Shown one piece after another: positions 8,276-25,483 of a DNA stretch of 64,000 nt. Both the position numbers and the translations under genes were made by a program. The stretch is from Chloroflexota bacterium (GTDB lineage Bacteria > Chloroflexota > Anaerolineae > Aggregatilineales > Phototrophicaceae), in contig WTGB01000083.1 of NCBI GenBank assembly GCA_011523735.1, positions 67,158 to 131,157 of the forward strand, read 5' to 3'. Each line of letters begins with the position of its first letter. Position 1 is the stretch's first letter. The notes under the pieces were generated by a model, which worked only from the letters and a program-made list of their open reading frames with translations, was not told where the DNA came from and ran no database searches.

Positions 8276-8638
8276 ATGTCGACCATCCTGGAATTTGGTC
8301 CCGTCACCGCGCTGCTGGTCATAGCTTCTGTTTTGGCGCTGATCATCGCGAATATCTCGCGGGTGATGGGTCCGCAGCGGCCTACTTACCGCAAGTCCGT
8401 ACCGTATGAAAGCGGCATGAAGCCGATTGGTCCGGCGACGCGGCGCCTGCCGGTAAAGTTTTACCTGGTCGCTGTGCTCTTTATCATTTTCGATATTGAG
8501 GTCATTTTCTTTTTGCCGTGGGCGGTCTCCATGCGCGACCTGGGTGTTTATGGTTTGGCGGTCATGGCTGTTTTCACGGTGATCCTGATCGTAGGCTTCG
8601 TCTACGAGTGGAAGAAAGGCGGTTTGGAATGGGAGTAA
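8276..8638 (+). CDS. nuoA: NADH-quinone oxidoreductase subunit A
   Basis: [38 protein letters not shown] motif. Confidence 0.95.
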
Positions 8639-9111
8639 GCTCAAAGCTTGGTAATTTGGGTGTCGTCACCACCACCGTTGAGCAAGCCGTGAATTGGGCG
8701 CGAACGGGGGCGATGTGGCCCCTGCTTTTCGGTTTGGCTTGCTGCGCAATAGAGTATATGAGTTCGCAAGCCTCGAGTTATGATCTTTCCCGCTTTGGCA
8801 TGGAGTTAAATCGGGCGACGCCGCGTCAGGCGGACCTGCTTATCGTATCAGGTCGTTTGACGCGCAAGATGGCGCCGGTGGTGCGGCAGCTTTACGATCA
8901 GATGGCGGAACCGAAGTGGGTTATTTCGATGGGCGATTGCGCTTCTTGCGGTGGCGTGTACAACAATTACGCGATCGTACAAGGCGTTGATGAGATTATC
9001 CCGGTCGATGTGTATATCGCCGGATGTCCGCCGCGCCCTGAGCAACTGCTGCACGGTATCTTGACTCTGCACGAGAAGGTCAAGGGCGAACGCATCGCTG
9101 ATTGGGCTTAA
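8629..9111 (+). CDS. nuoB: NADH-quinone oxidoreductase subunit B
   Basis: [45 protein letters not shown] at 8629 overlaps the nuoA stop by 10 nt. Confidence 0.95.
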
Positions 9112-9154
9112 GCCGCTTACGCTAGGGACGACGGGCAAAGAGGACAGCATAGAA

Positions 9155-9724
9155 ATGGAAGTACCGGCGGCGCGTAACCCGGTTGATGTCTTGCGTGAAA
9201 CATTTGGCGAGACCATTCTATTTGTTAAAGAATTCCGCGGTGAGACAACAGTTGTTGTCGAAGCGGCGCGGATGACTGAAGTGTTAGATTTTCTCCGTGT
9301 CAGTTCCGGGCTGGTCTACAATATGCTCTCGGATGTGAGCGCGGTTGATTATTATCCCGATGATTACGGCGAGCGTTTTGGCGACGACGCCGGTGATTAT
9401 CGGCCCGAGCGATTTGCAGTTTCTTATCACATCTTGTCGATGCTTTACAATCGCCGGCTGCGGGTCAAGATATTTGCTGACGAAGAAGACCCGCGGCTGC
9501 CCACGGCGACGATGATCTTTCCGGCAGCGAATTGGCTTGAGCGGGAAATCGCCGACATGATGGGTATCGTCTTTGAAGGACATCTCGATCAAAGGCGGCT
9601 GTTGATGCCGGATGACTGGCACGGGCATCCGCACAGGCGCGATTATCCGCTGGGCAAGGAAACGGTCGCCTTTTCATTTAATGAGGCGGAAATCCGCAAG
9701 TATAAGCCCTTTGCCACAGATTGA
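9155..9724 (+). CDS. nuoC: NADH-quinone oxidoreductase subunit C
   Basis: ANWLEREIADMMGIVFEGHLDQRRLLMPDDWHGHPHRRDYPL. Confidence 0.94.
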   Translation: MEVPAARNPVDVLRETFGETILFVKEFRGETTVVVEAARMTEVLDFLRVSSGLVYNMLSDVSAVDYYPDDYGERFGDDAGDYRPERFAVSYHILSMLYNRRLRVKIFADEEDPRLPTATMIFPAANWLEREIADMMGIVFEGHLDQRRLLMPDDWHGHPHRRDYPLGKETVAFSFNEAEIRKYKPFATD

Positions 9725-9738
9725 ACTTCGGGGTCGAT

Positions 9739-11007
9739 ATGGCAGTTGCAACAGCATCGCAATCCATAGAAGAGCAGCGCCGCTGGGAGGGCAGCCTGGA
9801 TCAGTTGCGCGGGCTGGTATCCGAACGCGCGATCACTGGCGAGACGATGCTGCTCAATATGGGACCGCATCACCCGAGCACGCACGGTGTTTTGCGCTTG
9901 CTATTGGAGTTGGATGGCGAGCAAATCGTGTCGTGCTTGCCCGATATTGGCTTCCTTCATACGGGTATCGAAAAATCTATTGAGGACAAGAGCTACGAGA
10001 AAGCGCTGCCGCTAACAGACCGGATGGATTACCTTTCGCCGATGTCGAATAACATGGCGTATTCAGCGGCGGTAGAGAAACTGCTTGACCTGGATGTGCC
10101 GGAGCGGGGGCAGATTATTCGCGTGGTCTGCCTTGAGTTGGCGCGCTGCGCGAGCCACCTGGTTTGGTTGGGTACTCACGCGATTGATATGGGGGCGATG
10201 AGCGTCTTGCTCTATGCCTTCCGCGAACGTGAACGCATCCTAGGGATGTTCGAGATGCTTTCGGGCCAGCGGATGATGAGCAGCTATATTCGTCCCGGCG
10301 GCGTTTGGCGTGATGTGCCGGATGAATTCTTACCGACGATCAAGCAGTTTCTGAATGACTTCCCGGCCAAGGTTGACGACTATGAAGCCTTGCTGACGCA
10401 GAACCCGATTTGGAAAGATCGGGCGCAGGGCGTGGGCGTCATCGAACCGGATGTTGCGTTGGCCTACGGTTTGACGGGACCGGCTCTGCGCGGCAGCGGC
10501 GTCAACTGGGATTTGCGGAAGGCGCAGCCCTATTCCGGTTATGAGACATACGATTTCAATGTGCCACTGGGCGAACATGGTGATGTCTATGATCGTTATT
10601 TGATTCGCATCCATGAATTCCGCGAGAGCATGAAGATTTTGAATCAAGCGGTAGCGCGGCTGGAACAGGTCAAGGGATCTTATCGTTCGGAGAATCGGAA
10701 GTATTGCCCGCCGCTGCGCAGTGAGTTAGGGCAGAGCATGGAGGCGGTGATCCATCACTTCAAGCTCTGGACCTATGGGTATGACGCGCCTGATGATGAG
10801 ATTTACAACGCCATCGAAAGCCCGCGAGGCGAGATCGGCTGCTATATTCACGGTACGGGGGCGAACAAACCGAGACGGGTTCATTTCAAGACGCCGTCCT
10901 TCATTCACATCAGCGCTCTGCCTGTGATGGCAAAGGGATACTTGCTGGCGGATATGGTGGCGATAATCGGCAGCGTCGATATTGTTTTGGGCGATTGCGA
11001 TAGATGA
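9739..11007 (+). CDS. nuoD: NADH-quinone oxidoreductase subunit D
   Basis: NMGPHHPSTHGVLRLLLELDGE, GFLHTGIEKSIE, SPRGEIGCYIH; ATG 9739 preferred over TTG 9721. Confidence 0.95.
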   Translation: MAVATASQSIEEQRRWEGSLDQLRGLVSERAITGETMLLNMGPHHPSTHGVLRLLLELDGEQIVSCLPDIGFLHTGIEKSIEDKSYEKALPLTDRMDYLSPMSNNMAYSAAVEKLLDLDVPERGQIIRVVCLELARCASHLVWLGTHAIDMGAMSVLLYAFRERERILGMFEMLSGQRMMSSYIRPGGVWRDVPDEFLPTIKQFLNDFPAKVDDYEALLTQNPIWKDRAQGVGVIEPDVALAYGLTGPALRGSGVNWDLRKAQPYSGYETYDFNVPLGEHGDVYDRYLIRIHEFRESMKILNQAVARLEQVKGSYRSENRKYCPPLRSELGQSMEAVIHHFKLWTYGYDAPDDEIYNAIESPRGEIGCYIHGTGANKPRRVHFKTPSFIHISALPVMAKGYLLADMVAIIGSVDIVLGDCDR

Positions 11008-11050
11008 GTATTTTCTAGAAACTAGCGTTTAAGGACTTGGGCTTTAGGAT

Positions 11051-11077
11051 GGATTCCCGCTGGAGAGCAGGGAATCC
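11051..11077. repeat. Perfect inverted repeat in the nuoD-nuoE gap
   Basis: GGATTCCC-GCTGGAGAGCA-GGGAATCC, 8-bp perfect arms. Confidence 0.75.
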
Positions 11078-11098
11078 GTTTATGAAGGAACTTATCGA

Positions 11099-11605
11099 AT
11101 GGCGATCATCGACAATCCGAAATACGAAGAGCGCATTAAGCATCATCTGGCGAAGTACGAAACGAAGCGCTCCGCGGTCATGCCCTTGTTGTTTATCGCT
11201 CAGGAAGAATACGGTTGGGTGAATCCTGAGGGGATTGCGGAGGTAGCGCAGATCCTCAACTTGGATCCGACACAAGTTAAGTCCATTGCCGGCTTTTACA
11301 CGATGTACTCGGAAAAGCCCAAGGGCAAGTATTGGTTGCAGGTCTGCACCGATTTGCCTTGCGCGCTGAAGGGGGCGGATGAGTTTCATGCTTGGCTGAA
11401 AGAGGAGCTCGGTGTGGAGGAAGGCGGGACGAGCGCTGATGGGATGTTCACTGTTGAGCATGTGATGTGCTTGGCCGCGTGCGACAAGGCGCCTATGCTG
11501 CAATGCAATTTTCATTACGTCGAAAGTCTTGATCGTGAAAAGATGCGCGACCTGCTGGCGAAATGGCGGCAGGAGGCGGCTCAAGCTGTGAATGGACATA
11601 GTTAA
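11099..11605 (+). CDS. nuoE: NADH-quinone oxidoreductase subunit E (2Fe-2S)
   Basis: QVCTDLPCALKGADE...VEHVMCLAACDKAPMLQCN, four-Cys thioredoxin-like ferredoxin. Confidence 0.93.
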   Translation: MAIIDNPKYEERIKHHLAKYETKRSAVMPLLFIAQEEYGWVNPEGIAEVAQILNLDPTQVKSIAGFYTMYSEKPKGKYWLQVCTDLPCALKGADEFHAWLKEELGVEEGGTSADGMFTVEHVMCLAACDKAPMLQCNFHYVESLDREKMRDLLAKWRQEAAQAVNGHS

Positions 11606-11652
11606 GTGCGTTTTGCCCTGCCTGGACAGGAAGTTAGGAACTGAAGGGGATT

Positions 11653-12903
11653 ATGCATATTCTCTTACGCGGGCGTGAAATTAAGAATATCAAGCAGCTT
11701 GACGTCTATGAGGGGCATGATGGATTCGCCGGTTTGAGAAAGGCGCTGGCGATGAAGCCGGCCGAGGTCATTAATGTTGTCAAGGCGTCTGGCTTGCGCG
11801 GGCGCGGGGGCGCAGGCTTCCCGACTGGCGTAAAGTGGAGCTTCATCCCGCAACATGAGCCGCTCAAATATGTCACGGTCAACGCGGATGAGAGCGAGAC
11901 GGGCACTTTCAAAGATCGCGAAATCATGGAAGAGAATCCTTATCAGTTGATTGAGGGATCGCTGATTTGCGCTTACGCGATTCAAGCGAAGGCTATCTAC
12001 ATCTATTTACGAGGCGAGTTCTGGGATATCGGCGACCAGTTGGACGCTTGCATTGAAGCGCTGCGTGAAAAGGGCTATGTTGGCAAAAACATTATGGGCT
12101 CGGGCTACGATTGCGAGGTGTATACACATCTCGGCGCGGGCGCGTATATCTGCGGCGAGGAGAGCGCGTTGCTCAACAGCCTGGAAGGCTATCTTGGTCA
12201 GCCAAGAGTACGTCCGCCTTTTCCGGCGCAAAAGGGCGGCGGCTTATATAAGGAAGCGACTGTTGTCAATAATGTTGAGACCTTGGCCAACGTCCCCTTC
12301 ATCTTAAACGAAGGCGCTGATGCCTTCAAAGCGATCGGCACGGCGCAAAGCACTGGCAACAAGATCTATTGTGTAAGCGGACATGTGAAGAAACCCGGTA
12401 ATTATGAGTTGTCGATGGGCACGACATTCCGTGAGTTGCTGTACGAACACGCCGGTGGACCGTTGTATGAAGATCGCGCTTTCAAAGCAATGTTGCCCTC
12501 GGGCGGTTCTGGTCCTATAGTGCCCTTGACTGACGAAGTGCTTGACACGCCGATGAGCTATGAAGACGCGGAGAAGATCGGCACGATCATCGGCTCTGCA
12601 TCAATCATCATCATGGACGAAACGGTGGATATGACCTGGGTCGCATCCAAGGTGACCAAGTTCTTCAAGCATGAGAGCTGTGGAAAATGTACGCCTTGCC
12701 GCGAAGGCACGTACTGGCTGGACAAAGTAATCGATCGCATTTTGGACGGGCGCGGTTCGCCGGATGATGTCAAACGCATCGCCGATGTGGCTGAGAATAT
12801 GGCTGGTACGACGCTCTGCGCCTTGGGCGATTTTGCTGCAAACCCGATCATTCATACTATTCGTCACTTTCCTGACGATTTTGCTCAGCACGTGGGGACC
12901 TAA
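11653..12903 (+). CDS. nuoF: NADH-quinone oxidoreductase subunit F
   Basis: [44 protein letters not shown] 4Fe-4S motif. Confidence 0.96.
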
Positions 12904-12911
12904 AGCGACTC

Positions 12912-13250
12912 ATGCGAATAGCTGCTGAGCGGGGAAACATTGGACGACGAATGCTGGGCGGGCTGATCAGCGCGGTCTACCAAGCACCTTTGGAGCGCGA
13001 GCGCGAGTTCTATCAACGACTCCGCGAGTTGAGCGAGTTAATCGGCGAAGCGCCCGACTCATTGACGCATGTAGTTATGCGCGGCGAGCTTTACTTGGAG
13101 CGAGGTGAGTACGAGCGAGCGAAGGCAGACTTTGAAACTGCGTTGGCCTTGGCTGAGAAGCTGGATGCTGAGAGGGGCTGGCTTATCGTAGAGCAGGTGA
13201 TGCGCGACCGCGCGCTTTATGGCTTGAGAATGGTGGAGCGGCAGTTCTGA
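12912..13250 (+). CDS. Small TPR-like protein between nuoF and nuoG
   Basis: 112-aa ORF; THVVMRGELYLERGEYERAKADFETALALAEKL fits a tetratricopeptide repeat; co-directional with short gaps on both sides. Confidence 0.7.
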   Translation: MRIAAERGNIGRRMLGGLISAVYQAPLEREREFYQRLRELSELIGEAPDSLTHVVMRGELYLERGEYERAKADFETALALAEKLDAERGWLIVEQVMRDRALYGLRMVERQF

Positions 13251-13293
13251 CGCATGCGCGTGGGCAAGCTGTGATGGTGATTTGGAGGGATGA

Positions 13294-15828
13294 ATGTCCG
13301 ATACGGTGAAGATCAACATCGATGGGACAGATTATGAAGTAGCGGCTGGATCGAACCTGGTGGATGCTGCGAAGTGGCACGCTGGAAATGACATTCCGGT
13401 CTTCTGCTATCATCCCAAGATGGACCCGGTGGGCATGTGCCGGATGTGCCTAGTGGAATTGGGCACACCGGCGAGAGATCGTGGGACTGGCGAGATAATG
13501 CTCAATGAAGATGGGTCGCCACAGATACGTTATTTCCCCAAATTGCAAACAGCCTGCACGACGTCCGTCAGTGATGGCATGCATGTCAAAACGAATACGC
13601 AAGAAGTCATTGACGCGCGAAATGATGTGCTGGAATTTTTGTTAAGCAGTCATCCGCTCGACTGCCCGATTTGTGACAAAGGCGGCGAATGTCCGCTACA
13701 GAATCTGACGATGCAGCATGGACCGCAAGCATCTAGGATGTACTTTGAAGACAAGCAGTTATTGGAGAAACACTATCCTCTTGGTGATTTAATTTTCCTG
13801 GATCAAGAGCGCTGTATTCAATGCGCGCGCTGCGTTCGTTTTCAGGATGAGGTTGTCGGTGACGATGTGCTGGCCTTCCATGAACGTGGACGGCGGCTGC
13901 AAATCATTACCAATTCTGATCCGGGATTTGATACTTATTTCAGCGGCAACACGACAGATATCTGCCCGGTTGGTGCATTGACGACGGCTGATTTTCGCTT
14001 TGGCGCGCGACCTTGGGAATTGACCGATGTACCCAGTATTTCGCCCTGGGATGCGGCCGGGGAGAATATCACGCTTAGCATGCGCTTGGACCGCGACTTT
14101 GGCGGCAGGGCGCTAATCAAGCGCGTGATGCCGCGGCAAAACGAGTTGGTCAACGAAATCTGGATCAGTGACAAGACGCGCTTCGGACATCATTTCACCC
14201 GGAGTGAGGATCGCCTGCATGCGCCGTGGATAAGAACGGGCGACGCTCTCCGTGAATCGAATTGGGAAAACGCATTCTCCGATATCGCCCAGATATTGAG
14301 GGACGCGGGCGGCGATGTGGCGGCTATCGCCGGCAGTGGCATGTCTAATGAAGACTTGTGGGAATTGCGGCGGTTGATGGAAGGGCTGGGCAGTTCTCGT
14401 TTGGGCGCTTGGCCCCCGACTCATGGCAGCGCTGAAGCGGTAGCTGAAGTCGGCGTGGGCTTTGGCACAAATCTGGGTCAGCTGGGCAAAGGCGATGCGG
14501 TTCTGGTGATCGCCTGCGACTTGGAGGAAGAAGTGCCGATTTGGCGTCTTCGGTTGAAGCAGGCGCAAGATCGTGGCGCATACCTGGTCGTCGCTAACGC
14601 GCGTAATACGAGGCTGGAAGATCTAGCCGTGCAAGGCGCACGCAACGACAAGGTGGTCGAAGGCGATTCCATTCGTTATGGCGCAGGCGAGGCTGTAGCC
14701 GTCATGCGCGATTTGAAGAGGCAACACAAGGCGATCGCAGACCGCTTAGGCAAGGCGGAGAACCTTGTGATCGTGGCTGGGGCGGAAGGTCTAAGTTTGG
14801 CAAGTAGTCGGGCGCTGGCGCAGGCGGCTGGCAACTTCTTGATCGAAACCGGTCATGCTGGGACAGTAAATAGCGGCTTGCTCTCGCCGCTGCCGGGCGC
14901 GAACGGCATGGGTTTGTACTACCTGGGCTATAAGCCTGACGCGAGCTTGGAGATCATGGCGAGTCCGCCGAAGGTGCTGTTTGTGGCGCAGGCGGAGTTG
15001 CTTGATGACGATCCGGCGGCGCGGACCTGGCTGGCCCAGGTTGAAACTGTAATTTACGCGAATTTCTTTGATGACGGCATATCGGACTTTGCCGACTTTG
15101 TATTGCCGCTCCAGACATTTGCTGAACGCGATGGCAGCTTTGTCAATGGCGAGCGGCGTGTGCAGCGCTTCACTGTAGCGCAAGGACCAGTGGGGCAGGC
15201 GCTGCCGGCCTGGAAACTCTTTGGCAGCATCAGGCAAGAAATGGGAATGAGCCATCTCAAGCCATCGGCGGCGGCGGTTATGCTGGAAGCAAGCAGAAAC
15301 ATCAAGGTCTTTGACGGCATGCGGTACAAAGCGCTGGCGCAGGTCAAGCGGCAGTTCCCTGATGTCGGTGGCCGGGATCAGTATTATGGCGGCACTGCTT
15401 ACGCGAACACTGGCGGCATAGGCATACAGATTCCCGCAGTTGCTGACAAGAATAAAAAGCTGAAGCCAAAAGAGTTGGGTGACGCTGGCGAGGGATTGGT
15501 TGGCGAGGGCGAAGTATTGATTATGCCGATCACGCGGCTTTACAATCGGCAGCGGAATTTCCGCCCGTCCTTGCTGATGGAACCACGGATACTGGCGCCT
15601 TATGCCATCATCCATCCGGCTGATGCCCAGCGATTTGGCGTCGTGCAGGATGATGTCGTTGCGATTTCAGCTGGCGATTCAGCGGTGCGCGTACGAGCGA
15701 CAATTAGCGACGAGATAGCCGCTGGCATTGTTGTCCTGCCACGACATATGACGGAAGCGGCAGTCCCACTGACAATAACCAGCGGGACGATCAGCCGAGT
15801 TGCGGAAGCGGTCGCTTCGGCGGACTGA
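13294..15828 (+). CDS. nuoG: NADH-quinone oxidoreductase subunit G
   Basis: CYHPKMDPVGMCRMCLVE, HPLDCPICDKGGECPLQNL, RCIQCARCVRFQDEV, followed by molybdopterin-oxidoreductase-like domain. Confidence 0.95.
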   Translation: MSDTVKINIDGTDYEVAAGSNLVDAAKWHAGNDIPVFCYHPKMDPVGMCRMCLVELGTPARDRGTGEIMLNEDGSPQIRYFPKLQTACTTSVSDGMHVKTNTQEVIDARNDVLEFLLSSHPLDCPICDKGGECPLQNLTMQHGPQASRMYFEDKQLLEKHYPLGDLIFLDQERCIQCARCVRFQDEVVGDDVLAFHERGRRLQIITNSDPGFDTYFSGNTTDICPVGALTTADFRFGARPWELTDVPSISPWDAAGENITLSMRLDRDFGGRALIKRVMPRQNELVNEIWISDKTRFGHHFTRSEDRLHAPWIRTGDALRESNWENAFSDIAQILRDAGGDVAAIAGSGMSNEDLWELRRLMEGLGSSRLGAWPPTHGSAEAVAEVGVGFGTNLGQLGKGDAVLVIACDLEEEVPIWRLRLKQAQDRGAYLVVANARNTRLEDLAVQGARNDKVVEGDSIRYGAGEAVAVMRDLKRQHKAIADRLGKAENLVIVAGAEGLSLASSRALAQAAGNFLIETGHAGTVNSGLLSPLPGANGMGLYYLGYKPDASLEIMASPPKVLFVAQAELLDDDPAARTWLAQVETVIYANFFDDGISDFADFVLPLQTFAERDGSFVNGERRVQRFTVAQGPVGQALPAWKLFGSIRQEMGMSHLKPSAAAVMLEASRNIKVFDGMRYKALAQVKRQFPDVGGRDQYYGGTAYANTGGIGIQIPAVADKNKKLKPKELGDAGEGLVGEGEVLIMPITRLYNRQRNFRPSLLMEPRILAPYAIIHPADAQRFGVVQDDVVAISAGDSAVRVRATISDEIAAGIVVLPRHMTEAAVPLTITSGTISRVAEAVASAD

Positions 15829-15846
15829 TATAAGAGGAAGACAAGT

Positions 15847-17415
15847 ATGAGCCGTAATGTGAAGATCGGCATCGGCATTGGCATAGTCGCTCTGATCGGT
15901 CTCGTCGTGGTCCTGGCTTTGATTCTCGCTAATCTGGGCGCGATCGCAGCATGGATCGGCTTTGATGAGGCCGGCAACCTCAACGGGCGCGAGGGTGCTG
16001 TCGGTATGCTGCTGAATCCGGAAGCGCGCGCGCAGAATGTGATTCAATGCCAAGATGATGCCGGTTGCTCTGCGCTTTGGCCTATTATATTTGCGGCTGG
16101 TTTCGCCTTTGTCATCGTCACCGGTTTCGCCTATACCACCTTGCTGGAGCGGCGCTTGCTGGCTTTCTTGCAGCACCGCGTTGGGCCGAATCGCGTAGGT
16201 CCGCTTGGTTTCTTGCAGCCAGCGGCTGACGGCGTCAAGCTCGTTTTCAAAGAGGATTTGATTCCGGCTGGGGCGGACAAATGGGTCTTCCGGTTGGCGC
16301 CCATGATTAAAGTGATTCCGATTCTGATGATCGCCGCGGTAATACCGATGGGACCTGACCTCGTCTTGCCCTGGTTTGCGCCATCGTTGGGCGATGTCTG
16401 GTATCAGGTGCCCCAGGGCTTAGTGGATTCCAATGTGGGCATCCTCTGGGTGATCGCGATCACGAGCATCGCGACTTATGGCGTGGTGCTAGCTGGTTGG
16501 TCGAGCGATAACAAGTATGCTATGTTGGGCGCGCTACGGGCATCGGCGCAGATGATCAGTTATGAGCTTAGTATGGGCTTGACGCTGGCAGTACCAGTGA
16601 TGATTGTCGGCAGTATGGCGATTGGCGATATCATCGACGCGCAGCGCAATATTTGGGACTGGTTCGTCTTTCAGAATCCGCTGGCAGCGGCGGTGTTGAT
16701 CCTGGCGCTGTTGGCGGAGACCAACCGCGCGCCTTTCGATTTGACCGAAGCCGAGCAGGAATTAACTCAAGGTTATATGACCGAATACAGCGGCATGAAA
16801 TTCGCCTTGTTTATGATGGCGGAATATCTGGGCATGATCGCGGTAAGCTTGGTGGCGGTGGCGGTCTTTTTCGGCGGCTATCACTTGTGGCCAATGGACG
16901 GCTTGCCGATTTTGGCGCCGGTCATTTTTATCGGCAAGGTGTTCTTGATGTTATGCGGCATGATCTGGATTCGGGCGACGTTGCCACGCATACGCTACGA
17001 CCGCTTGATGCAGTTCGGCTGGAAAGTGATGATTCCGCTGGCGCTGCTGGCGGTTGCCTGGACAGCGGTAGCCATAGTAGTTGGAGATGCCGTGGGCGGT
17101 GATGCCTATCCTTTGCTCTCCGGGGCAGTGTTCGTGATTGTGCTGGTCATAGGCGGTTTGGCGCTGCGCCGCATGAGCCGGGACCAAGACAGCGAAGAAG
17201 CGATCCCGCTGGAAGACGATCCGGCCTACACGGGCGAGCGGCGCGGGTTGGGCTGGGCGCTGGTGCATCTGGTTGGCATGCTGATCGCTATCCCCCTGGT
17301 TCATATCCGCTTTCAGGTAAGAGCGCTGGAGGGGCTGGCAAGTTTCGGGCGGACACCGGAAGAGGATCGCGTTTTGGAGAGCGGAGAGACTGCTCTCAAA
17401 CGAGCGGGTGATTAG
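15847..17415 (+). CDS. nuoH: NADH-quinone oxidoreductase subunit H with N- and C-terminal extensions
   Basis: AYTTLLERRLLAFLQHRVGPNRVGPLGFLQP, ETNRAPFDLTEAEQELTQGYMTEYSGMKFALF core; 522 aa, longer than typical NuoH. Confidence 0.94.
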   Translation: MSRNVKIGIGIGIVALIGLVVVLALILANLGAIAAWIGFDEAGNLNGREGAVGMLLNPEARAQNVIQCQDDAGCSALWPIIFAAGFAFVIVTGFAYTTLLERRLLAFLQHRVGPNRVGPLGFLQPAADGVKLVFKEDLIPAGADKWVFRLAPMIKVIPILMIAAVIPMGPDLVLPWFAPSLGDVWYQVPQGLVDSNVGILWVIAITSIATYGVVLAGWSSDNKYAMLGALRASAQMISYELSMGLTLAVPVMIVGSMAIGDIIDAQRNIWDWFVFQNPLAAAVLILALLAETNRAPFDLTEAEQELTQGYMTEYSGMKFALFMMAEYLGMIAVSLVAVAVFFGGYHLWPMDGLPILAPVIFIGKVFLMLCGMIWIRATLPRIRYDRLMQFGWKVMIPLALLAVAWTAVAIVVGDAVGGDAYPLLSGAVFVIVLVIGGLALRRMSRDQDSEEAIPLEDDPAYTGERRGLGWALVHLVGMLIAIPLVHIRFQVRALEGLASFGRTPEEDRVLESGETALKRAGD

Positions 17416-17467
17416 CGCAAAAGCGGCAATTTCTGTACGAGGACTGGAGAGCAAGGGGTTGCAGAGG

Positions 17468-17962
17468 ATGAATGTAGTCAAGGGTTTTGCCACAACCTTG
17501 AAGCACTTGATGGACGATGCGGTGACCGTACAGTATCCGGAACAGGTGCAGAAATTCCACGATCGATATAAGGGGCGGCATCATCTGCGTCGCTATGACA
17601 ACGGCTTGGAAAAGTGCATCGGCTGTTCGCTTTGCGCGGCGGCTTGCCCGGCCGACGCGATTTGGGTAGAGGCGGCGGAAAACACCGACGAAGAGCGGTA
17701 TAGCCCGGGCGAACGCTATGCCAAGACCTATGAGATAAACATGCTTCGCTGCATCTTCTGCGGCTATTGTGAAGACGCCTGCCCGACTGAAGCGATTCAA
17801 CTGGGTCATGAACATCAGATGTCGTTCACTGACCGGCGCGATGCGATCTATGTCAAAGACATGCTGATTGATCCGCCGCTCGAAGGCGCGCCGGGCACAC
17901 CGCAGGAGGTTGAACCGGGGGCATTTGATCGGTCGATACCCGATATGGAAGATCCGTCATAG
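17468..17962 (+). CDS. nuoI: NADH-quinone oxidoreductase subunit I (two 4Fe-4S)
   Basis: CIGCSLCAAACPADAI and CIFCGYCEDACPTEAI; ATG 17468 fits better than 17408. Confidence 0.94.
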   Translation: MNVVKGFATTLKHLMDDAVTVQYPEQVQKFHDRYKGRHHLRRYDNGLEKCIGCSLCAAACPADAIWVEAAENTDEERYSPGERYAKTYEINMLRCIFCGYCEDACPTEAIQLGHEHQMSFTDRRDAIYVKDMLIDPPLEGAPGTPQEVEPGAFDRSIPDMEDPS

Positions 17963-17996
17963 CGACCTAGTTGGGCCGCAGTTCAGGTATTGTAAA

Positions 17997-18025
17997 TTGA
18001 ACAGCGACGCCATTTGTGCTAAAGT
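17997..18025 (+). promoter_or_regulatory. Candidate sigma70-like promoter upstream of nuoJ
   Basis: TTGAAC (17997-18002), 17-bp spacer, TAAAGT (18020-18025); -10 bracketed by TTGTGC/GCACAA arms (18014-18019, 18026-18031). Confidence 0.45.
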
Positions 18026-18058
18026 GCACAATCGCATTTATCTTGGGAATTAACTCGT

Positions 18059-19447
18059 ATGGAATGGTTGTTTCTGGTTGTGAGTTTCGTGGCGGTCTTG
18101 GCGGCTGGCATGATGCTGACGCGGCAAAACGCAGTGCATAGCGCCCTCTTTCTTATCGTCAATTTTGGCTGCGTTGCCTTCCTTTATTTGATGCTGGATG
18201 CGCCCTTCCTGGCCATGGTGCAGGTGACCGTATACACTGGCGCCATTATGGTTCTATTCCTATTCGTCATTATGCTTCTCGGGGCGGAGGCGACGAGCGA
18301 TACCTCGGGGACAATGCGCTGGCTGGGTTTCGCTGGCACGGCGGTCGCCATCATTTTGCTGCTGATCTTTGCTTTTCCTCTTGCTTCGGACATGCTAGCC
18401 GACGAGACTATCGAGCGGCCGGATACGCAAGCGCGGCTCCGTGTCATCAACGCGATACCGGGTGGCGAGGCGGAGGTATTTACCGTAATGGAGAGTGGAT
18501 TCGCCATGCCCTTAGAGGGCACAGTCAGCAGTAATGTGCTGCTTGACGCGGCGGATGAGTCGTTCGAGGATTTGCGCTTGGATGATGCCGTTTATCAATA
18601 CGCGCGCGAATCGATTCAAGCGTACGTTGATTTGCCAGCGGGCGATTACACAGTGATTGCCGGTGTGGGGGATGGTAATTACGTTTCTGGACCTATATAT
18701 ACGGAAACTGTGAATCTGGCGCCGGACAGCGGGCATTCGGTTGTGTTCTTTGAGAACAGTGAAAACCTGATTGATGTCGTTGTAGTACAAGACGATGTCA
18801 GCGCGCCGAGTGTTGGCAAGATGCGGCTTACCGTCTTCAATGCTGTGACCGACAAACAGGTTTCGTTGGTAGATGTCGGCCAATATACGGCGCGGCGCAG
18901 TTTGTGTGAGAACGGCTCATGCAGTTCGTTGATTCCGCATAGTGTTTTGATCGAGCGGTTGCCAGCCGGTGAAAAAACAAGCCTGGAACTGGAAGAGGGT
19001 TCTTATAACCTGGCTTTCGTTGACCAGAATCAGTCTGTGCTGCGGACGCTCGCCGATTATGACGCGGAACGCGGATTGATCGAAACACGTGTCCTCGTCC
19101 GGGAACCGGGTGTCCCTGGCAGCCAGCCAAGCTATCGTGCCGCGGTATTCAATACCATTGCGATTCCAGCGTTCGGCAGTCCTGAGGCAGTCGGGCAGGT
19201 TCTGTTCATTGATTACGTATTGCCGGTGATGCTGGTTGGTGTATTGCTTTTGGTGGCGCTGATAGGCGTGATTGTATTGGCGCGACCGGACGCCTTGGCA
19301 CAAGCGGAACGCCGCCGGATCAATCGACGCCGGCGCGTGAACCGCCCCTTGGTCAGTGTGATCTCACAGCAGACCGGCGCTGATGTATTGAGCGGCGACT
19401 ACCTGGCGAAACTGCCCGGCGGCTCAGATGACAAAGCAGCCGAGTAG
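18059..19447 (+). CDS. nuoJ: NADH-quinone oxidoreductase subunit J with large DUF4397-like insertion
   Basis: NuoJ core NAVHSALFLIVNFGCVAFLYLMLDAPFLAMVQVTVYTGAIMVLFLFVIMLL and AVGQVLFIDYVLPVMLVGVLLLVALIGVIVLAR separated by ~250 aa of beta-rich sequence (ARLRVINAIPGGEAEVF...YVDLPAGDYTVIAGV). Confidence 0.92.
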   Translation: MEWLFLVVSFVAVLAAGMMLTRQNAVHSALFLIVNFGCVAFLYLMLDAPFLAMVQVTVYTGAIMVLFLFVIMLLGAEATSDTSGTMRWLGFAGTAVAIILLLIFAFPLASDMLADETIERPDTQARLRVINAIPGGEAEVFTVMESGFAMPLEGTVSSNVLLDAADESFEDLRLDDAVYQYARESIQAYVDLPAGDYTVIAGVGDGNYVSGPIYTETVNLAPDSGHSVVFFENSENLIDVVVVQDDVSAPSVGKMRLTVFNAVTDKQVSLVDVGQYTARRSLCENGSCSSLIPHSVLIERLPAGEKTSLELEEGSYNLAFVDQNQSVLRTLADYDAERGLIETRVLVREPGVPGSQPSYRAAVFNTIAIPAFGSPEAVGQVLFIDYVLPVMLVGVLLLVALIGVIVLARPDALAQAERRRINRRRRVNRPLVSVISQQTGADVLSGDYLAKLPGGSDDKAAE

Positions 19448-19466
19448 CCGCAGGAGAGGGTAGGCA

Positions 19467-19775
19467 ATGAACCCAATCGGCACCGAGCCGTATATCGTAC
19501 TTAGCATGGTACTTTTCCTGATGGGGGCGCTCGGCGTCCTCATGCGGCGCAATGCGATCCTGCTTTTCATGTCGGTTGAGTTGATGTTGAACTCGGCGAA
19601 CCTGGCGCTGGTGGCTTTCGCGCGCGAATGGGGCCAGGTCAATGGTCATGTCTTCGTATTCTTTGTGATGACAGTGGCCGCGGCCGAAGTCGCTATTGGT
19701 TTGGCTTTGATCGTAAATATTTTCCGCGAACGCCAAAGCATCAATATTGACGAATTGCGCCAGATGCAAGGCTAG
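19467..19775 (+). CDS. nuoK: NADH-quinone oxidoreductase subunit K
   Basis: [32 protein letters not shown]. Confidence 0.95.
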
Positions 19776-19805
19776 CGGACCGCCGTCGAAAGAGGCGCTT
19801 AAGGT

Positions 19806-22313
19806 ATGGAAAATCTGCCACTTTTGGTTCCATTGGTGATATTCGTTCCCGCCCTCGGGGCGATTATCAACTTCTTCTTTGGCGCTCGCCTCGGGGAGAA
19901 GTGGTCGGGTTATATCGGTTGCTTCGCATCGATTTTGGCCTTCATTGTATCTTTGCTGCTTTTGACCTATGTGACGGGCACGGATGGCGGCGCGGCAGTG
20001 GTCAATCCGCCATTCTTTGACGGCTGGTTGCGGATCGAATCAATCGACTTGGAAATCGCCTGGCAGATGCGAGTGGACTCGCTCAGCGTGACGATGATGC
20101 TGGTAGTCACCGGCGTCGGCTCGTTGATTCATCTCTACGCCCGTGGTTATATGCACGGCGATAAATGGTATCCGCGCTTCTTCGCCTACTTGAATATGTT
20201 CCTCGCCTTCATGCTGGTCTTGGTGACGGCGAATAATTTCCTGATGCTTTTCGTTGGCTGGGAGGGAGTTGGGCTTTGCTCTTTCTTATTGATTGGCTTC
20301 TGGTGGGATAAGAAAGCGCCGGAAGGCTGGAAGAACAGCAACGCGGCGCGCAAGGCTTTCATCGTCAATCGGATCGGCGATTTCGGCTTGCTGATGGCGA
20401 TGTTCTTGATCTTCTGGACCTTCGGCACGCTCGACTTTTTCAAGGCAGGCGAGCTGCCAAACACAGAAGCGAAATACCTGGTTGGATGGCGCGAGCATAA
20501 TGGTTTGCTAGAGCATGGTGCTGACAAAGATGGCAAGACGGAGAAAGAATCCGCGGACGAAGGCGATCATGGCGACGACGGGCATGGCGCGAAGTATGAA
20601 TGCGTACCCGCGGATGCTAAGATGCATAGCGAAGACCATATAAGCGATGAGTACGGTGATGACGGACACGGCAAGTCGAATCCCTTGGCGAAGGACATCC
20701 GCGCGATTTACTGCGACAACCATCGCTTCGATACGGAACTGCTCGGTGTATTCGGGCAGACGACCGAGCGCTTTGGCCAGGGTGAAATGGTCGACTTTGG
20801 CGGCTTCCAGATTGCTTTTGAAGACGTGATCTTCCTGATTGCGCTTTTCATGCTGCTGGGCGTGACTGGCAAGTCAGCGCAGATACCGCTGTTTATCTGG
20901 CTGCCGGATGCGATGGCTGGTCCCACACCGGTCAGCGCCCTGATTCACGCCGCGACGATGGTCACAGCCGGCGTCTACCTGATGGTGCGGTCGAATGTAT
21001 TTCTGTGGGAACTCAACCACGCGGGTTATGTGCTCGGGTTGATCATCACCTTAGTTGGCGCGGGGACGGCGCTGGTCGCTGGTTTTATCGCGCTGGGACA
21101 ATGGGACATCAAGCGCGTACTGGCTTATTCGACGATTTCGCAGCTTGGTTTTATGCTGGCGGCGGTAGGCATTGGCGCCCATGTTGCGGCGATGTTTCAC
21201 CTTGTGACGCATGCTGTATTCAAGGCGCTGCTTTTCCTCGGCAGCGGCTCAGTCATCCACGGCGTTGAACATGGGCATCATCACGCGCATGATCGGGGGC
21301 ACGGCGATCACCACGATAATGACTTCGACCCACAAGATATGCGTAATATGGGCGGCTTGCGCAAGCGGATGCCGATTACTTATATCACTTACCTCGTCGG
21401 CACTTTGGGTTTGGCGGGGATTTTCCCCTTTGCTGGTTTCTGGTCGAAGGACGAGATTCTGGCTGATGCCTGGTTTGAAGGCTTTGAGTTGAACGAAACA
21501 AGCGGCTTTATCGCCTTTGGCCTGCTGTTGGCAGCGGCGGCATTTACCGCCTTCTATATGTGGCGGCAGGTTGTTCTGGTCTTTTTCGACGATGCGCGTA
21601 GCGAGGCAGCCGAACGCGCGCCGGAAAGCAGCGGCGCCATGTTGCTGCCTTTACTAATTCTGGCGATATTCACTTGTATCATCGGTTTGATCAATGTGCC
21701 AAAAGCAACACCGATATTCGATGGCATCTACCATCCTTACGAATTCAAATATTTCCTCGAACACAGTTTGGTCAGCGTCTCCCGCGGGCACACGCTGGAC
21801 TTCAACTTGCTGATCGCCGGCGTCGCGCTGGCGCTGGGCATCGTATCAATTGTAGTCGCCCATCGCGTGTACAAGGGCAAGGGTTTGGCAAGCGACAAGC
21901 GCGATCAATTAGAAACGAGCGCGCCGACACGCGGTTTGTTTAGGCTGGCGAATGGCCGGCTCTATTGGGACGAATTCTATACGGCGGTTATCGAAAGCCC
22001 CTTTAACAGGCTGGCTGGCTTTTTGGCTGACCGTGTGGATTGGGAGTTCCTGCACGATTATTTCCACGATCGGATCATCAAGCGCGGCTTCGATACTATC
22101 GGGGACTTGCTCAGCAGACCAATTGATTTGGGCATTGTCGATGGCGCTGTCAATGGCGTCGGCATTTTTGTGCAGCGCGCGGCAAGCTGGATGCGCCGTT
22201 CGCAGACTGGCTATGTGCGCCTTTATGCGGTTGTGCTGTTCGTCGGTGTAGTTGTTGTAATCTTGTTCATGCTCATACCATTTATTCAGGCTCTGCTCCA
22301 AAGTGGCGCTTAA
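19806..22313 (+). CDS. nuoL: NADH-quinone oxidoreductase subunit L with acidic/His-rich insertions
   Basis: GVTGKSAQIPLFIWLPDAMAGPTPVSALIHAATMVTAGVY; 835 aa. Confidence 0.95.
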   Translation: MENLPLLVPLVIFVPALGAIINFFFGARLGEKWSGYIGCFASILAFIVSLLLLTYVTGTDGGAAVVNPPFFDGWLRIESIDLEIAWQMRVDSLSVTMMLVVTGVGSLIHLYARGYMHGDKWYPRFFAYLNMFLAFMLVLVTANNFLMLFVGWEGVGLCSFLLIGFWWDKKAPEGWKNSNAARKAFIVNRIGDFGLLMAMFLIFWTFGTLDFFKAGELPNTEAKYLVGWREHNGLLEHGADKDGKTEKESADEGDHGDDGHGAKYECVPADAKMHSEDHISDEYGDDGHGKSNPLAKDIRAIYCDNHRFDTELLGVFGQTTERFGQGEMVDFGGFQIAFEDVIFLIALFMLLGVTGKSAQIPLFIWLPDAMAGPTPVSALIHAATMVTAGVYLMVRSNVFLWELNHAGYVLGLIITLVGAGTALVAGFIALGQWDIKRVLAYSTISQLGFMLAAVGIGAHVAAMFHLVTHAVFKALLFLGSGSVIHGVEHGHHHAHDRGHGDHHDNDFDPQDMRNMGGLRKRMPITYITYLVGTLGLAGIFPFAGFWSKDEILADAWFEGFELNETSGFIAFGLLLAAAAFTAFYMWRQVVLVFFDDARSEAAERAPESSGAMLLPLLILAIFTCIIGLINVPKATPIFDGIYHPYEFKYFLEHSLVSVSRGHTLDFNLLIAGVALALGIVSIVVAHRVYKGKGLASDKRDQLETSAPTRGLFRLANGRLYWDEFYTAVIESPFNRLAGFLADRVDWEFLHDYFHDRIIKRGFDTIGDLLSRPIDLGIVDGAVNGVGIFVQRAASWMRRSQTGYVRLYAVVLFVGVVVVILFMLIPFIQALLQSGA

Positions 22314-22328
22314 GGAGAACGCGTTCCC

Positions 22329-23936
22329 ATGGACGTAACTGGACTTTCGCTTACTACCATCACCCTGTTCTTGCCTTTGATCGGGCTTGCCATTTTAGCC
22401 TTCATGAATGGCGAAACGCAGAAGGGCAACCTGAAATGGGTGGCTTTCGTTACGAGTTTGCTGACCTTTGTCGCGTCGGTGGTGATGTGGATAAATTTTG
22501 ATCCGAGTTCATCTGAGTTGCAGATGGTGCAGCGGAACACCTGGGCGGAAGTCTCTTTAGGCGAGTCTGTCATCAATGTGAGCTACTTCGTCGGTGTGGA
22601 TGGCATCAGTATGCTGCTGGTCCTCTTGACGACCTTCATCATGCCGATATCCATTCTTGGCTCCTTTGGCAGCCATATCTTTGAGGAGCGCGGACGGGAA
22701 AAGCTCTACTATATCTTTTTGATGCTGCTTGAATGGTCGATGATCGGGGTCTTCGTTGTACACGATCTCATCATCTTCTATGTCTTCTGGGAAGTGACAC
22801 TGGTACCGATGTATTTCCTCATCGGCATCTGGGGCGCGGAAGAGCGCATCTACGCTGCTGTCAAGTTCTTCCTCTACACGATGGCCGGCTCGATTCTGAT
22901 GCTGATCGCGATACTGTATGTCGGCAATCGCTCCGGCACCTTTAGCACCTACAGCGCTGGGGGCGATGTGGGCGTGATCGAAATGGTCCAGAACTTCGAT
23001 GGCGAAGGGACCTATTGGGATGCGCTCGGTCCGGACGGAGAGGGCGAAGACGGGGGCTTCCTCTTGGACTCGGTAGAGAGTTTTCTCTTCTTGGGCTTCT
23101 TGGTGGCTTTCGCGATAAAAGTGCCGATCTTCCCCTTCCATAGCTGGCTGCCTGATGCGCATGTGCAGGCGCCGACGGCTGGCTCGGTGATTCTGGCCGG
23201 CGTACTGCTGAAGATGGGCACATACGGCATCGTGCGCTTCAACTTGAATTTGTTCCCGGAAGCGACGGTGGCATGGGCGCCGACCATCGCTTTCCTCGGT
23301 GTAGTCGGGATCATTTATGGCGCCTGGGTCAGCTATGCGCAGGACAACGTCAAGAAGCTGGTCGCTTATTCGTCGGTGAGCCACCTCGGTTTCGTCGTGC
23401 TGGGCATTTTCGCGCTGAATTCGCAGGGTTTGCAAGGCGCTACGCTGCAGATGGTCAATCACGGCATTAGTACGGGAGGTCTGTTTCTGATCGTTGGCAT
23501 GTTGTACGAACGCTGGCACACCAAGGAGATGGCGGACTATGGCGGGATTTGGAAGGTGATGCCGCTCTTTGGCGCGATAAGTCTGGTCATCTCGCTCAGC
23601 AGCATGGGTTTACCCGGTCTTAACGGTTTCATCGGCGAATTTACGATCCTGCTCGGTTCGCTGGGCAGCGATTATCTTGGATTCGCGTTCACGCTGTTTG
23701 GCACGCTGGGCGTTATCCTCGCGGCGGTTTACCTGCTGAAGATGTTTCAACATGTCTTTATGGGCGAGCTCAAGAAGCCGCTGGCTGATGAAGCGGGTTA
23801 CAAACTGACCTGGTATGAGAAGGCGGCGTATATACCGATCATCATTATGATCTTCTGGATGGGCTTGCAGCCGATCGTCTTCTTCAACTTGCTGGACGTG
23901 TCGGTGGATAGCATCGTCGCCATGTTCGTTCGCTAG
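22329..23936 (+). CDS. nuoM: NADH-quinone oxidoreductase subunit M
   Basis: FHSWLPDAHVQAPTAGSVILAGVLLKMGTYG; WEVTLVPMYFLIGIWG. Confidence 0.95.
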   Translation: MDVTGLSLTTITLFLPLIGLAILAFMNGETQKGNLKWVAFVTSLLTFVASVVMWINFDPSSSELQMVQRNTWAEVSLGESVINVSYFVGVDGISMLLVLLTTFIMPISILGSFGSHIFEERGREKLYYIFLMLLEWSMIGVFVVHDLIIFYVFWEVTLVPMYFLIGIWGAEERIYAAVKFFLYTMAGSILMLIAILYVGNRSGTFSTYSAGGDVGVIEMVQNFDGEGTYWDALGPDGEGEDGGFLLDSVESFLFLGFLVAFAIKVPIFPFHSWLPDAHVQAPTAGSVILAGVLLKMGTYGIVRFNLNLFPEATVAWAPTIAFLGVVGIIYGAWVSYAQDNVKKLVAYSSVSHLGFVVLGIFALNSQGLQGATLQMVNHGISTGGLFLIVGMLYERWHTKEMADYGGIWKVMPLFGAISLVISLSSMGLPGLNGFIGEFTILLGSLGSDYLGFAFTLFGTLGVILAAVYLLKMFQHVFMGELKKPLADEAGYKLTWYEKAAYIPIIIMIFWMGLQPIVFFNLLDVSVDSIVAMFVR

Positions 23937-23944
23937 GAGAGAGC

Positions 23945-25483
23945 ATGTTTGAGTCGCCGACTATTGCGGAATTCCTCGCGGGTTCCAACCTAGCTTCAAC
24001 GTTGCCCGGTACGCTCCTGATGGCGTGGACACTGCTGCTGGTTATTGTGGATCTGTTCGCCGACGAGGATCGCCAGCATTGGACGCCGATCCTGGCATGC
24101 GTCGGTTTGGGCATCAGTTTTGTGGCGAATATCGGCGTTTATTCACTGGCTGAAGGCCAGCAGGTGGCGCTTTATGGCATGTTCATCGCGGATGAGTTCA
24201 CCGGCTTCCTGAACTTCGTAATACTGATCGCCACGTTGATTGCGATTCTGATGAGCTGGGATTACCTCAAGCGGGCTGGTATCCATCGCGGCGAGTATTA
24301 TATCCTCGCGCTTCTTTCTTCAGCTGGCGCCATGTTCATGATCGGCGCAAATGACTTGATCATCGTCTTCGTCGCGCTCGAGTTACTGAGCATACCGCTA
24401 TACATCCTGGCCGCATTCCGCTCGATCAAGAACGATGGCAGTGACTTGGCGCTGAAGTCCGAAGAAAGTGGCATGAAATATTTCATCCTGGGAGCCTTTT
24501 CCAGCGCGTTCCTGGTTTTCGGGGCGGCGCTGGTTTATGGCGCCACCGGCACGACGAATATCCCGCAGATTTTCGAAATCGCGGGTAGTGTCGCCGGCGC
24601 GACGTCAACCGCGACATTCTATCTGCTGGTGGGTACGGCACTGTTGATCGTAGGTTTGGGCTTCAAGGTCGCAGTTGTGCCCTTCCATATGTGGACGCCC
24701 GATGTATACGAAGGGGCGCCGACGCCGGTTACCGCTTTCATGAGCGTAACGGCGAAGATTGGCGGCTTCGCGGCTTTGCTGCGCGTCCTGATCACTGGAC
24801 TTTCCGTGCTCGTACTGGCGGATGGCGATGCTGTCGTTTGGCAAGCGACGGCCACTATCATTGCCATCCTCACACTTGTGCTGGGCAATTTCGTGGCGAT
24901 ATCACAGCGTAATCTCAAACGCATGTTGGCATATTCGTCGATTGCGCACGCCGGCTACATTATGGTGGCTGTGGCAGCGGCCGGCAGCGCACACGTCATT
25001 GACGCGGCGACGCAAGGCGCGCTAGTGTATATGCTCACGTATATGTTCACCAATCTTGGCGCATTCGCCGTGGTCATGACGATAGAGCGGGAAGACGGCA
25101 GCGGCGGCAATATTGATGACATCAGCGGTCTGGCTCAATCCCGCCCCTTGTTGGCAATGGCAATGGCGATATTCATGCTCAGCTTGACCGGTGTTCCGCT
25201 GACGGCGGGCTTTATTGGCAAGTTCATGATCTTCTCCGCAGCCTTGCAAGCCGGCTTGTTTGGCCTGGCGGTTATAGGTGTGCTGACAAGTGTGGTGAGC
25301 GCCTTCTACTATATTCGCGTGGTGGTCAACATGTACCTCCGCGACAGCGATGGCGAATTGCAGCCGCCGTTGGATACCCAGTACGTTCGCTGGGCAGTCT
25401 ATATCGCGCTGGCCGGGACGCTGGTTTTCGGCATCTTCTATCCCTTAGCGACCAACCTGGTCAGTATGGTCAGCATCGCTTGA
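23945..25483 (+). CDS. nuoN: NADH-quinone oxidoreductase subunit N
   Basis: GFKVAVVPFHMWTPDVYEGAPTPVTAFMSVTAKIGGFAALLR; NLKRMLAYSSIAHAGY. Confidence 0.95.
   Translation: MFESPTIAEFLAGSNLASTLPGTLLMAWTLLLVIVDLFADEDRQHWTPILACVGLGISFVANIGVYSLAEGQQVALYGMFIADEFTGFLNFVILIATLIAILMSWDYLKRAGIHRGEYYILALLSSAGAMFMIGANDLIIVFVALELLSIPLYILAAFRSIKNDGSDLALKSEESGMKYFILGAFSSAFLVFGAALVYGATGTTNIPQIFEIAGSVAGATSTATFYLLVGTALLIVGLGFKVAVVPFHMWTPDVYEGAPTPVTAFMSVTAKIGGFAALLRVLITGLSVLVLADGDAVVWQATATIIAILTLVLGNFVAISQRNLKRMLAYSSIAHAGYIMVAVAAAGSAHVIDAATQGALVYMLTYMFTNLGAFAVVMTIEREDGSGGNIDDISGLAQSRPLLAMAMAIFMLSLTGVPLTAGFIGKFMIFSAALQAGLFGLAVIGVLTSVVSAFYYIRVVVNMYLRDSDGELQPPLDTQYVRWAVYIALAGTLVFGIFYPLATNLVSMVSIA

Follow-up and report, generated by a model that had tools for sequence, protein, structure and literature searches.

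A tandem DUF4397 insert between TM4 and TM5 of the complex I subunit NuoJ in one order of Chloroflexota

The nuoJ gene of the window (the whole stretch of 64,000 nucleotides analysed here) encodes a complex I subunit whose membrane core is interrupted, between TM4 and TM5, by an insert which profile comparisons show to be a tandem pair of DUF4397-like domains, the second copy being diverged. Within the order to which the host belongs, the phylogeny of neighbouring subunits further shows a single gain of this insert, followed by vertical retention with one loss. Both protein families are known; what appears undescribed is that the two are combined, that this occurs within a core pump subunit and that the combination is fixed across the order. 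A literature search, most subscription journals being outside its reach, indeed found no work in which NuoJ and DUF4397 were treated together, DUF4397 itself being seldom mentioned, and it did not bring to light the prior description of the insertion that the first-pass annotation had named as a possible refutation.

A NuoJ core split by a soluble insert

Features of the nuo operon and of nuoJ (window positions, strand):
8276..25483, + strand: complete canonical 14-subunit nuoA-N operon (ORFs; Pfam for H-N; A-G by reading order and sequence)
18059..19447, + strand: nuoJ, 462 aa, NuoJ/ND6 with tandem DUF4397 insert (ORF, PF00499, PF14344)
18062..18385, + strand: TM1-TM4 of the NuoJ core, aa 2-109, with the strongly conserved TM3 segment VYTGAIMVLFLFVIMLLGAE (PF00499, AF2 helices)
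18395..19174, + strand: insert between TM4 and TM5, presumed extracytoplasmic, aa 113-372 (DUF4397 in 39/39 homologous inserts, AF2)
18428..18793, + strand: insert domain 1, DUF4397 beta-sandwich, aa ~124-245 (PF14344 at aa 184-265; hhalign 99.6 against tandem secreted DUF4397; AF2 strands)
18818..19159, + strand: insert domain 2, diverged DUF4397-like beta-sandwich, aa ~254-367 (hhalign)
19181..19285, + strand: canonical P-side FGSPEAVGQVLF segment and TM5, aa 375-409 (second PF00499 piece)
19286..19444, + strand: basic C-tail RRRINRRRRVNRPLVSVI..QTG, presumably cytoplasmic, family-conserved (alignment A1, charges)

NuoJ matched PF00499 with 126.5 bits (cut-off 33.2) in two stretches, the best of which covered aa 16-111, while the second, at profile positions 107-146, was located 3' of the insert when the genome was searched with this same Pfam family. 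In the AF2 model of the whole protein, helices were predicted at residues 2-21, 25-45, 50-77 and 87-109; five TM helices were recognised, with a conserved Y-G-A-I-M-V-L-F segment in TM3 (AF2, alignment A1), and the FGSPEAVGQVLF segment and TM5 were also found in the plain NuoJ of sister families. The core is split by about 250 soluble residues, in which no membrane-like segment was found using 19-residue Kyte-Doolittle windows (maximal mean 0.86). The NCBIfam NuoJ models matched the flanks only, with scores under their cut-offs, and the gene sits in the nuo operon beside other core subunits. The first-pass annotation, which had described a NuoJ of this length with TM blocks parted by a soluble insert, was thus borne out by the open reading frame and the split PF00499 match; the boundaries that it gave, aa 113-362, were correct to about 10 residues, and its placement of the insert between TM4 and TM5 agrees with the PF00499 pieces and the AF2 helices.

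The pi-bulge gate of complex I lies in TM3 of NuoJ/ND6. The window protein shares with canonical NuoJ/ND6/Nqo10 (PF00499) the TM1-4 and TM5 core, the position between nuoI and nuoK and the sequence of the TM3 region, but the canonical TM4-TM5 loop of ~20-35 aa is replaced by a folded domain of ~250 aa.

Two DUF4397-like domains in tandem within the insert

The resemblance to DUF4397 noted at first reading was upheld by Pfam, PF14344 matching aa 184-265 with 45.6 bits (gathering cut-off 30.6; E 1.3e-11). DUF4397 was matched by all 39 aligned inserts, namely the window protein and 38 relatives from five families (E <= 0.001), with full-profile coverage in some relatives and a best E of 4.7e-24 in a full-length relative. 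The insert profile was co-linear with tandem secreted DUF4397 proteins over 178 columns (hhalign probability 99.9, E 6.7e-32), domain 2 aligned with repeat 2 of these tandem proteins (96.7) and domain 1 with domain 2 (95.7), which confirms the two repeats initially suggested. Domain 2 of the window protein, for which no Pfam match above the gathering score was found, is detected by profile-profile comparison alone, and domain 1 has an extra loop, of genus-level distribution, ahead of its Pfam match. Insert length ranged from 211 to 297 aa.

A beta-sandwich had also been proposed, with AlphaFold of NuoJ alone as a means of checking it. In the AF2 model of the whole protein, two beta domains accompanied the helices of NuoJ, and the insert alone, modelled with 39 sequences, was confidently predicted as a double beta-sandwich (pLDDT 86.4, pTM 0.84), the defined orientation of its two domains suggesting a rigid body and not a floppy loop.

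Stand-alone DUF4397 proteins from other Chloroflexota (L154, L155, L158 and L159) contain two copies each and have signal-peptide-like starts, and one stand-alone relative ends in an LPxTG-like tail, both features being read from the sequence by eye. Proteins of ~900 aa, presumed secreted, in which four DUF4397-like units are followed by bacterial SH3 domains (SH3b), are recurrent in the order (host genome G000, contig C150, L151:685-3309; also L135, L136 and L137). The secreted proteins (L154, L155, L158, L159; L135, L151) share the domain family and the tandem arrangement of the NuoJ insert, but they have signal-peptide-like starts and stand outside any membrane enzyme, whereas the insert lies within one.

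E. coli NuoJ has five TM helices in an N-out/C-in arrangement, which places its TM4-TM5 loop in the periplasm (PMC4604451), and the loop bearing the insert should accordingly face outward. The strongly basic C-tail, the acidic insert (41 D+E versus 17 K+R) and the presumed secretion of the DUF4397 relatives, with their signal-peptide-like starts, agree with this topology, and from homology and charge we infer, as had been proposed, an outward-facing insert; in these features, nothing points to the cytoplasmic location that the first-pass annotation had named as a possible refutation.

Distribution and history of the insert

The insert was found in nearly every genome of the host family and, at the level of the order, in 105 of 121 genomes, either near full-length (101) or as fragments at contig ends (4). 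A plain NuoJ, in an open frame of 157-241 aa, was carried by 10 of the 121, all from families f2, f5 and f6 apart from one f3 genome, and canonical NuoJ was not found in the other 6. Of the 115 order genomes in which canonical NuoJ was found, 105 accordingly keep the insert, and these bearers span five GTDB families. Outside the order, no insert was found among the matches listed for 120 class and 121 phylum genomes, and NuoJ, otherwise conservative in size, was ~160-290 aa long in most of the Chloroflexota sampled there; in the survey of the phylum that the first-pass annotation had advised, the insert was thus confined to one order in the sample. Some of the long open frames among the class and phylum matches were inspected as possible bearers; of these, L138, L139 and L141, once traced to a start codon, turned out to be plain NuoJ of 170-193 aa, and no insert match was found in L140 and L145, long frames without a start codon. 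The host genus consists of metagenome-assembled genomes of Chloroflexota, one of which (MPMG bin20) came from the sponge Aplysina aerophoba (PMC5649159), and the insert-bearing order includes sponge-associated bacteria.

This distribution bears on the reality of the fusion. A chimeric assembly, which had been envisaged from the outset, or a mis-called fusion between a secreted protein and nuoJ, retains practically no probability: no supporting point was found, the reading frame is uninterrupted, a GC step at the insert junctions is absent, and the recurrence of this architecture in ~100 independently assembled genomes rules out chance or a chimera.

In a tree from which NuoJ was left out, based on a concatenation of NuoH, I, K, L and M in which every ORF was attributed to the query that it matched best, the insert bearers formed one clade (UFBoot 100), with f2 and f5+f6 branching off earlier and the plain f3 genome (G110) nested inside f3. 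One bearer clade and one nested plain genome point to one gain and one later loss. A recent horizontal insertion was rejected, in view of the vertical distribution, this tree and the even GC. In G110 (L117), the insert is absent and the nuo operon fragment is intact, so the insert is dispensable in at least that lineage.

Mean identity within the genus reached 92% for TM1-4 and for TM5, as compared with 47% for domain 1 and 72% for domain 2. The corresponding dN/dS values, ~0.05 for TM1-4, ~0.26 for domain 1, ~0.12 for domain 2 and ~0.05 for TM5, are approximate because dS is near saturation. Read at this precision, these comparisons show an insert under purifying selection, yet evolving faster than the NuoJ core. 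Across the order, mean column identity of the insert was 22% and the only near-invariant positions were R128, G195 and R256 (window numbering), which fits a structural rather than an enzymatic role. An enzymatic domain was indeed rejected, a conserved set of polar residues not being found in the insert across the order.

The insert may also be a tolerated passenger, i.e., a neutral insertion in a permissive outer loop, kept since its removal is mutationally difficult and doing nothing more than fold harmlessly. This is possible, given the single clean loss and the fast evolution, and it would accommodate the variable length, the low conservation and the dispensability of the domain in all plain relatives. 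It is nevertheless improbable, as persistence over five families (in 105/115 genomes), DUF4397 matches in 39/39 inserts tested and dN/dS well below 1 weigh against it, and erosion ought to be more frequent if a core pump subunit carried a long domain of no use.

Possible roles of the insert

The explanation that we tentatively favour, while rating it somewhat short of probable, is that the insert acts much like an accessory subunit built into NuoJ, bracing the membrane arm on its outer face. In the ancestor of the five GTDB families, within the one order, a whole tandem-DUF4397 cassette of the secreted-protein type would have been inserted in frame, entering the short P-side TM4-TM5 loop of NuoJ, so that a canonical complex I would carry a fixed, acidic, two-lobed outer beta-sandwich adjoining the proximal membrane arm. 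This insert may pack over the outer loops of subunits H, A, K and N and brace the membrane arm or its assembly, and would be neither catalytic nor in the proton path. Lineage-wide retention, the rigid predicted fold, the few invariant residues and purifying selection are in line with such bracing, as are the enlarged presumed outer segments of other Nuo subunits (NuoL TM6-7 loop, NuoH N-terminus). In E. coli complex I, ordered extensions take the place of supernumerary subunits (PMC8357420). The G-loop and C-terminal extensions described there are, like the insert, lineage-specific core additions replacing accessory subunits, but they belong to the cytoplasmic peripheral arm and are not globular domains from a secreted family. 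Against bracing, fast evolution and low column identity suggest few conserved interfaces, and the insert was lost in G110.

The structural likenesses of the insert introduce the main rival explanation. Among solved structures, the best Foldseek matches were the extracellular domains of PepT2 and PepT1 (PepT2 5a9i: E 5.5e-8, TMt 0.73). In mammalian PepT1/PepT2 (5a9i, 5a9h, 5a9d), a tandem beta-sandwich is likewise inserted in a proton-coupled membrane transporter, there on the outer side, but the transporter family and the kingdom differ, identity to the insert is 12%, and PDB sequences searched by profile, as far as E 10, yielded no PepT chain; the likeness is one of fold and situation. AlgF (6czt/6d10), a periplasmic alginate O-acetylation protein, was also matched weakly, in fold and in sequence (E 0.038, sub-threshold); it is a soluble single protein, unlike the NuoJ insert, and its model weakly matches a secreted DUF4397 protein as well.

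The PepT domains are tandem Ig-like inserts reported to bind trypsin (PMC4597091). By analogy with this nearest solved fold, the outward tandem sandwich could dock onto another protein or the envelope, such as another respiratory complex, a secreted redox partner, peptidoglycan or a surface layer, thereby positioning complex I while leaving the core enzyme unaffected. Secreted relatives of the same order, in which DUF4397 is joined to SH3, the LPxTG-like tail of one stand-alone relative and the faster evolution of domain 1, as might be expected of an external recognition surface, all speak for docking. We consider it doubtful, however, since conserved surface residues are absent across the order, a candidate partner was not found and the PepT likeness is a fold resemblance at low identity. 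Its more specific form, a recognition module tethering complex I to one particular extracytoplasmic partner (respiratory complex or envelope), seems to us unlikely; if true, it would provide a genetically fused bacterial route to a supercomplex or to a fixed positioning of complex I.

Finally, the acidic insert and the acidic, His-rich NuoL outer loop could gather or buffer protons, or bind cations, outside the membrane. Net charge was indeed negative in 39/39 inserts (-5 to -41), and E, D and H are abundant in the NuoL outer loop throughout the order. Such an electrostatic role is nonetheless very improbable: extracytoplasmic DUF4397 domains from the same lineage are often acidic too, so the charge may be a general property, f7 inserts are mostly only weakly acidic, and the accepted proton exit sites do not include NuoJ.

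Bracing by an accessory-like domain stays our preferred reading of the role. From a broader point of view, the case suggests that a core pump subunit can accommodate a secreted domain on its P side without the gene being lost. The natural series of plain, gained and lost forms, to which a second, plain NuoJ within one cell is added, suits tests of accessory-domain effects on complex I assembly, stability and supercomplexes.

Neighbouring subunits and a second complex I-like cluster

NuoL (19806-22313) has a long acidic, His-rich TM6-TM7 outer loop at 20451-20813. This loop is enlarged across the order, with 94-203 residues between flanking motifs as compared with 55 in two class outgroups. A causal link between this enlargement and the NuoJ insert was rejected, the loop being enlarged in plain f2, f5 and f6 as well. 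In G110 (L117), the span measures 140 residues, versus 104-109 in insert-bearing f3 relatives, a single case that is possibly due to chance.

NuoH has a close Cys pair, C68-C74 (16048-16068), at its N-terminus, on the presumed outer side, and these residues seem likely to form a disulfide. The pair is CxxxxxC in most genomes and shorter in f5/f6; it is kept in f1, f3, f4, f5, f6 and f8, but not in f2 or the outgroups. Coupling of the pair to the insert was rejected, plain f5, f6 and G110 carrying it too. The C-terminus of NuoH is also extended, with an apparent extra TM helix.

A small TPR-like protein of 112 aa, with sub-threshold Pfam TPR matches, is encoded between nuoF and nuoG (12912-13250). 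In f4, a D-Ala-D-Ala-ligase-like gene (ATP-grasp by eye) lies between nuoI and nuoJ (L123:2572-3762, L147:3212-4390, L122:5822-6985); it was considered as a split donor of the insert and rejected, being unrelated to the domain.

The host genome contains a second complex I-like cluster (G000 C20, L134:255-8039, minus strand), with NuoH, J, K, L and two NuoM-type subunits in a row. No match to NuoF, NuoG or NuoI was found within the 14 kb examined. The NuoJ of this cluster is plain, without insert, and the cluster resembles the two-NuoM type of complex I.
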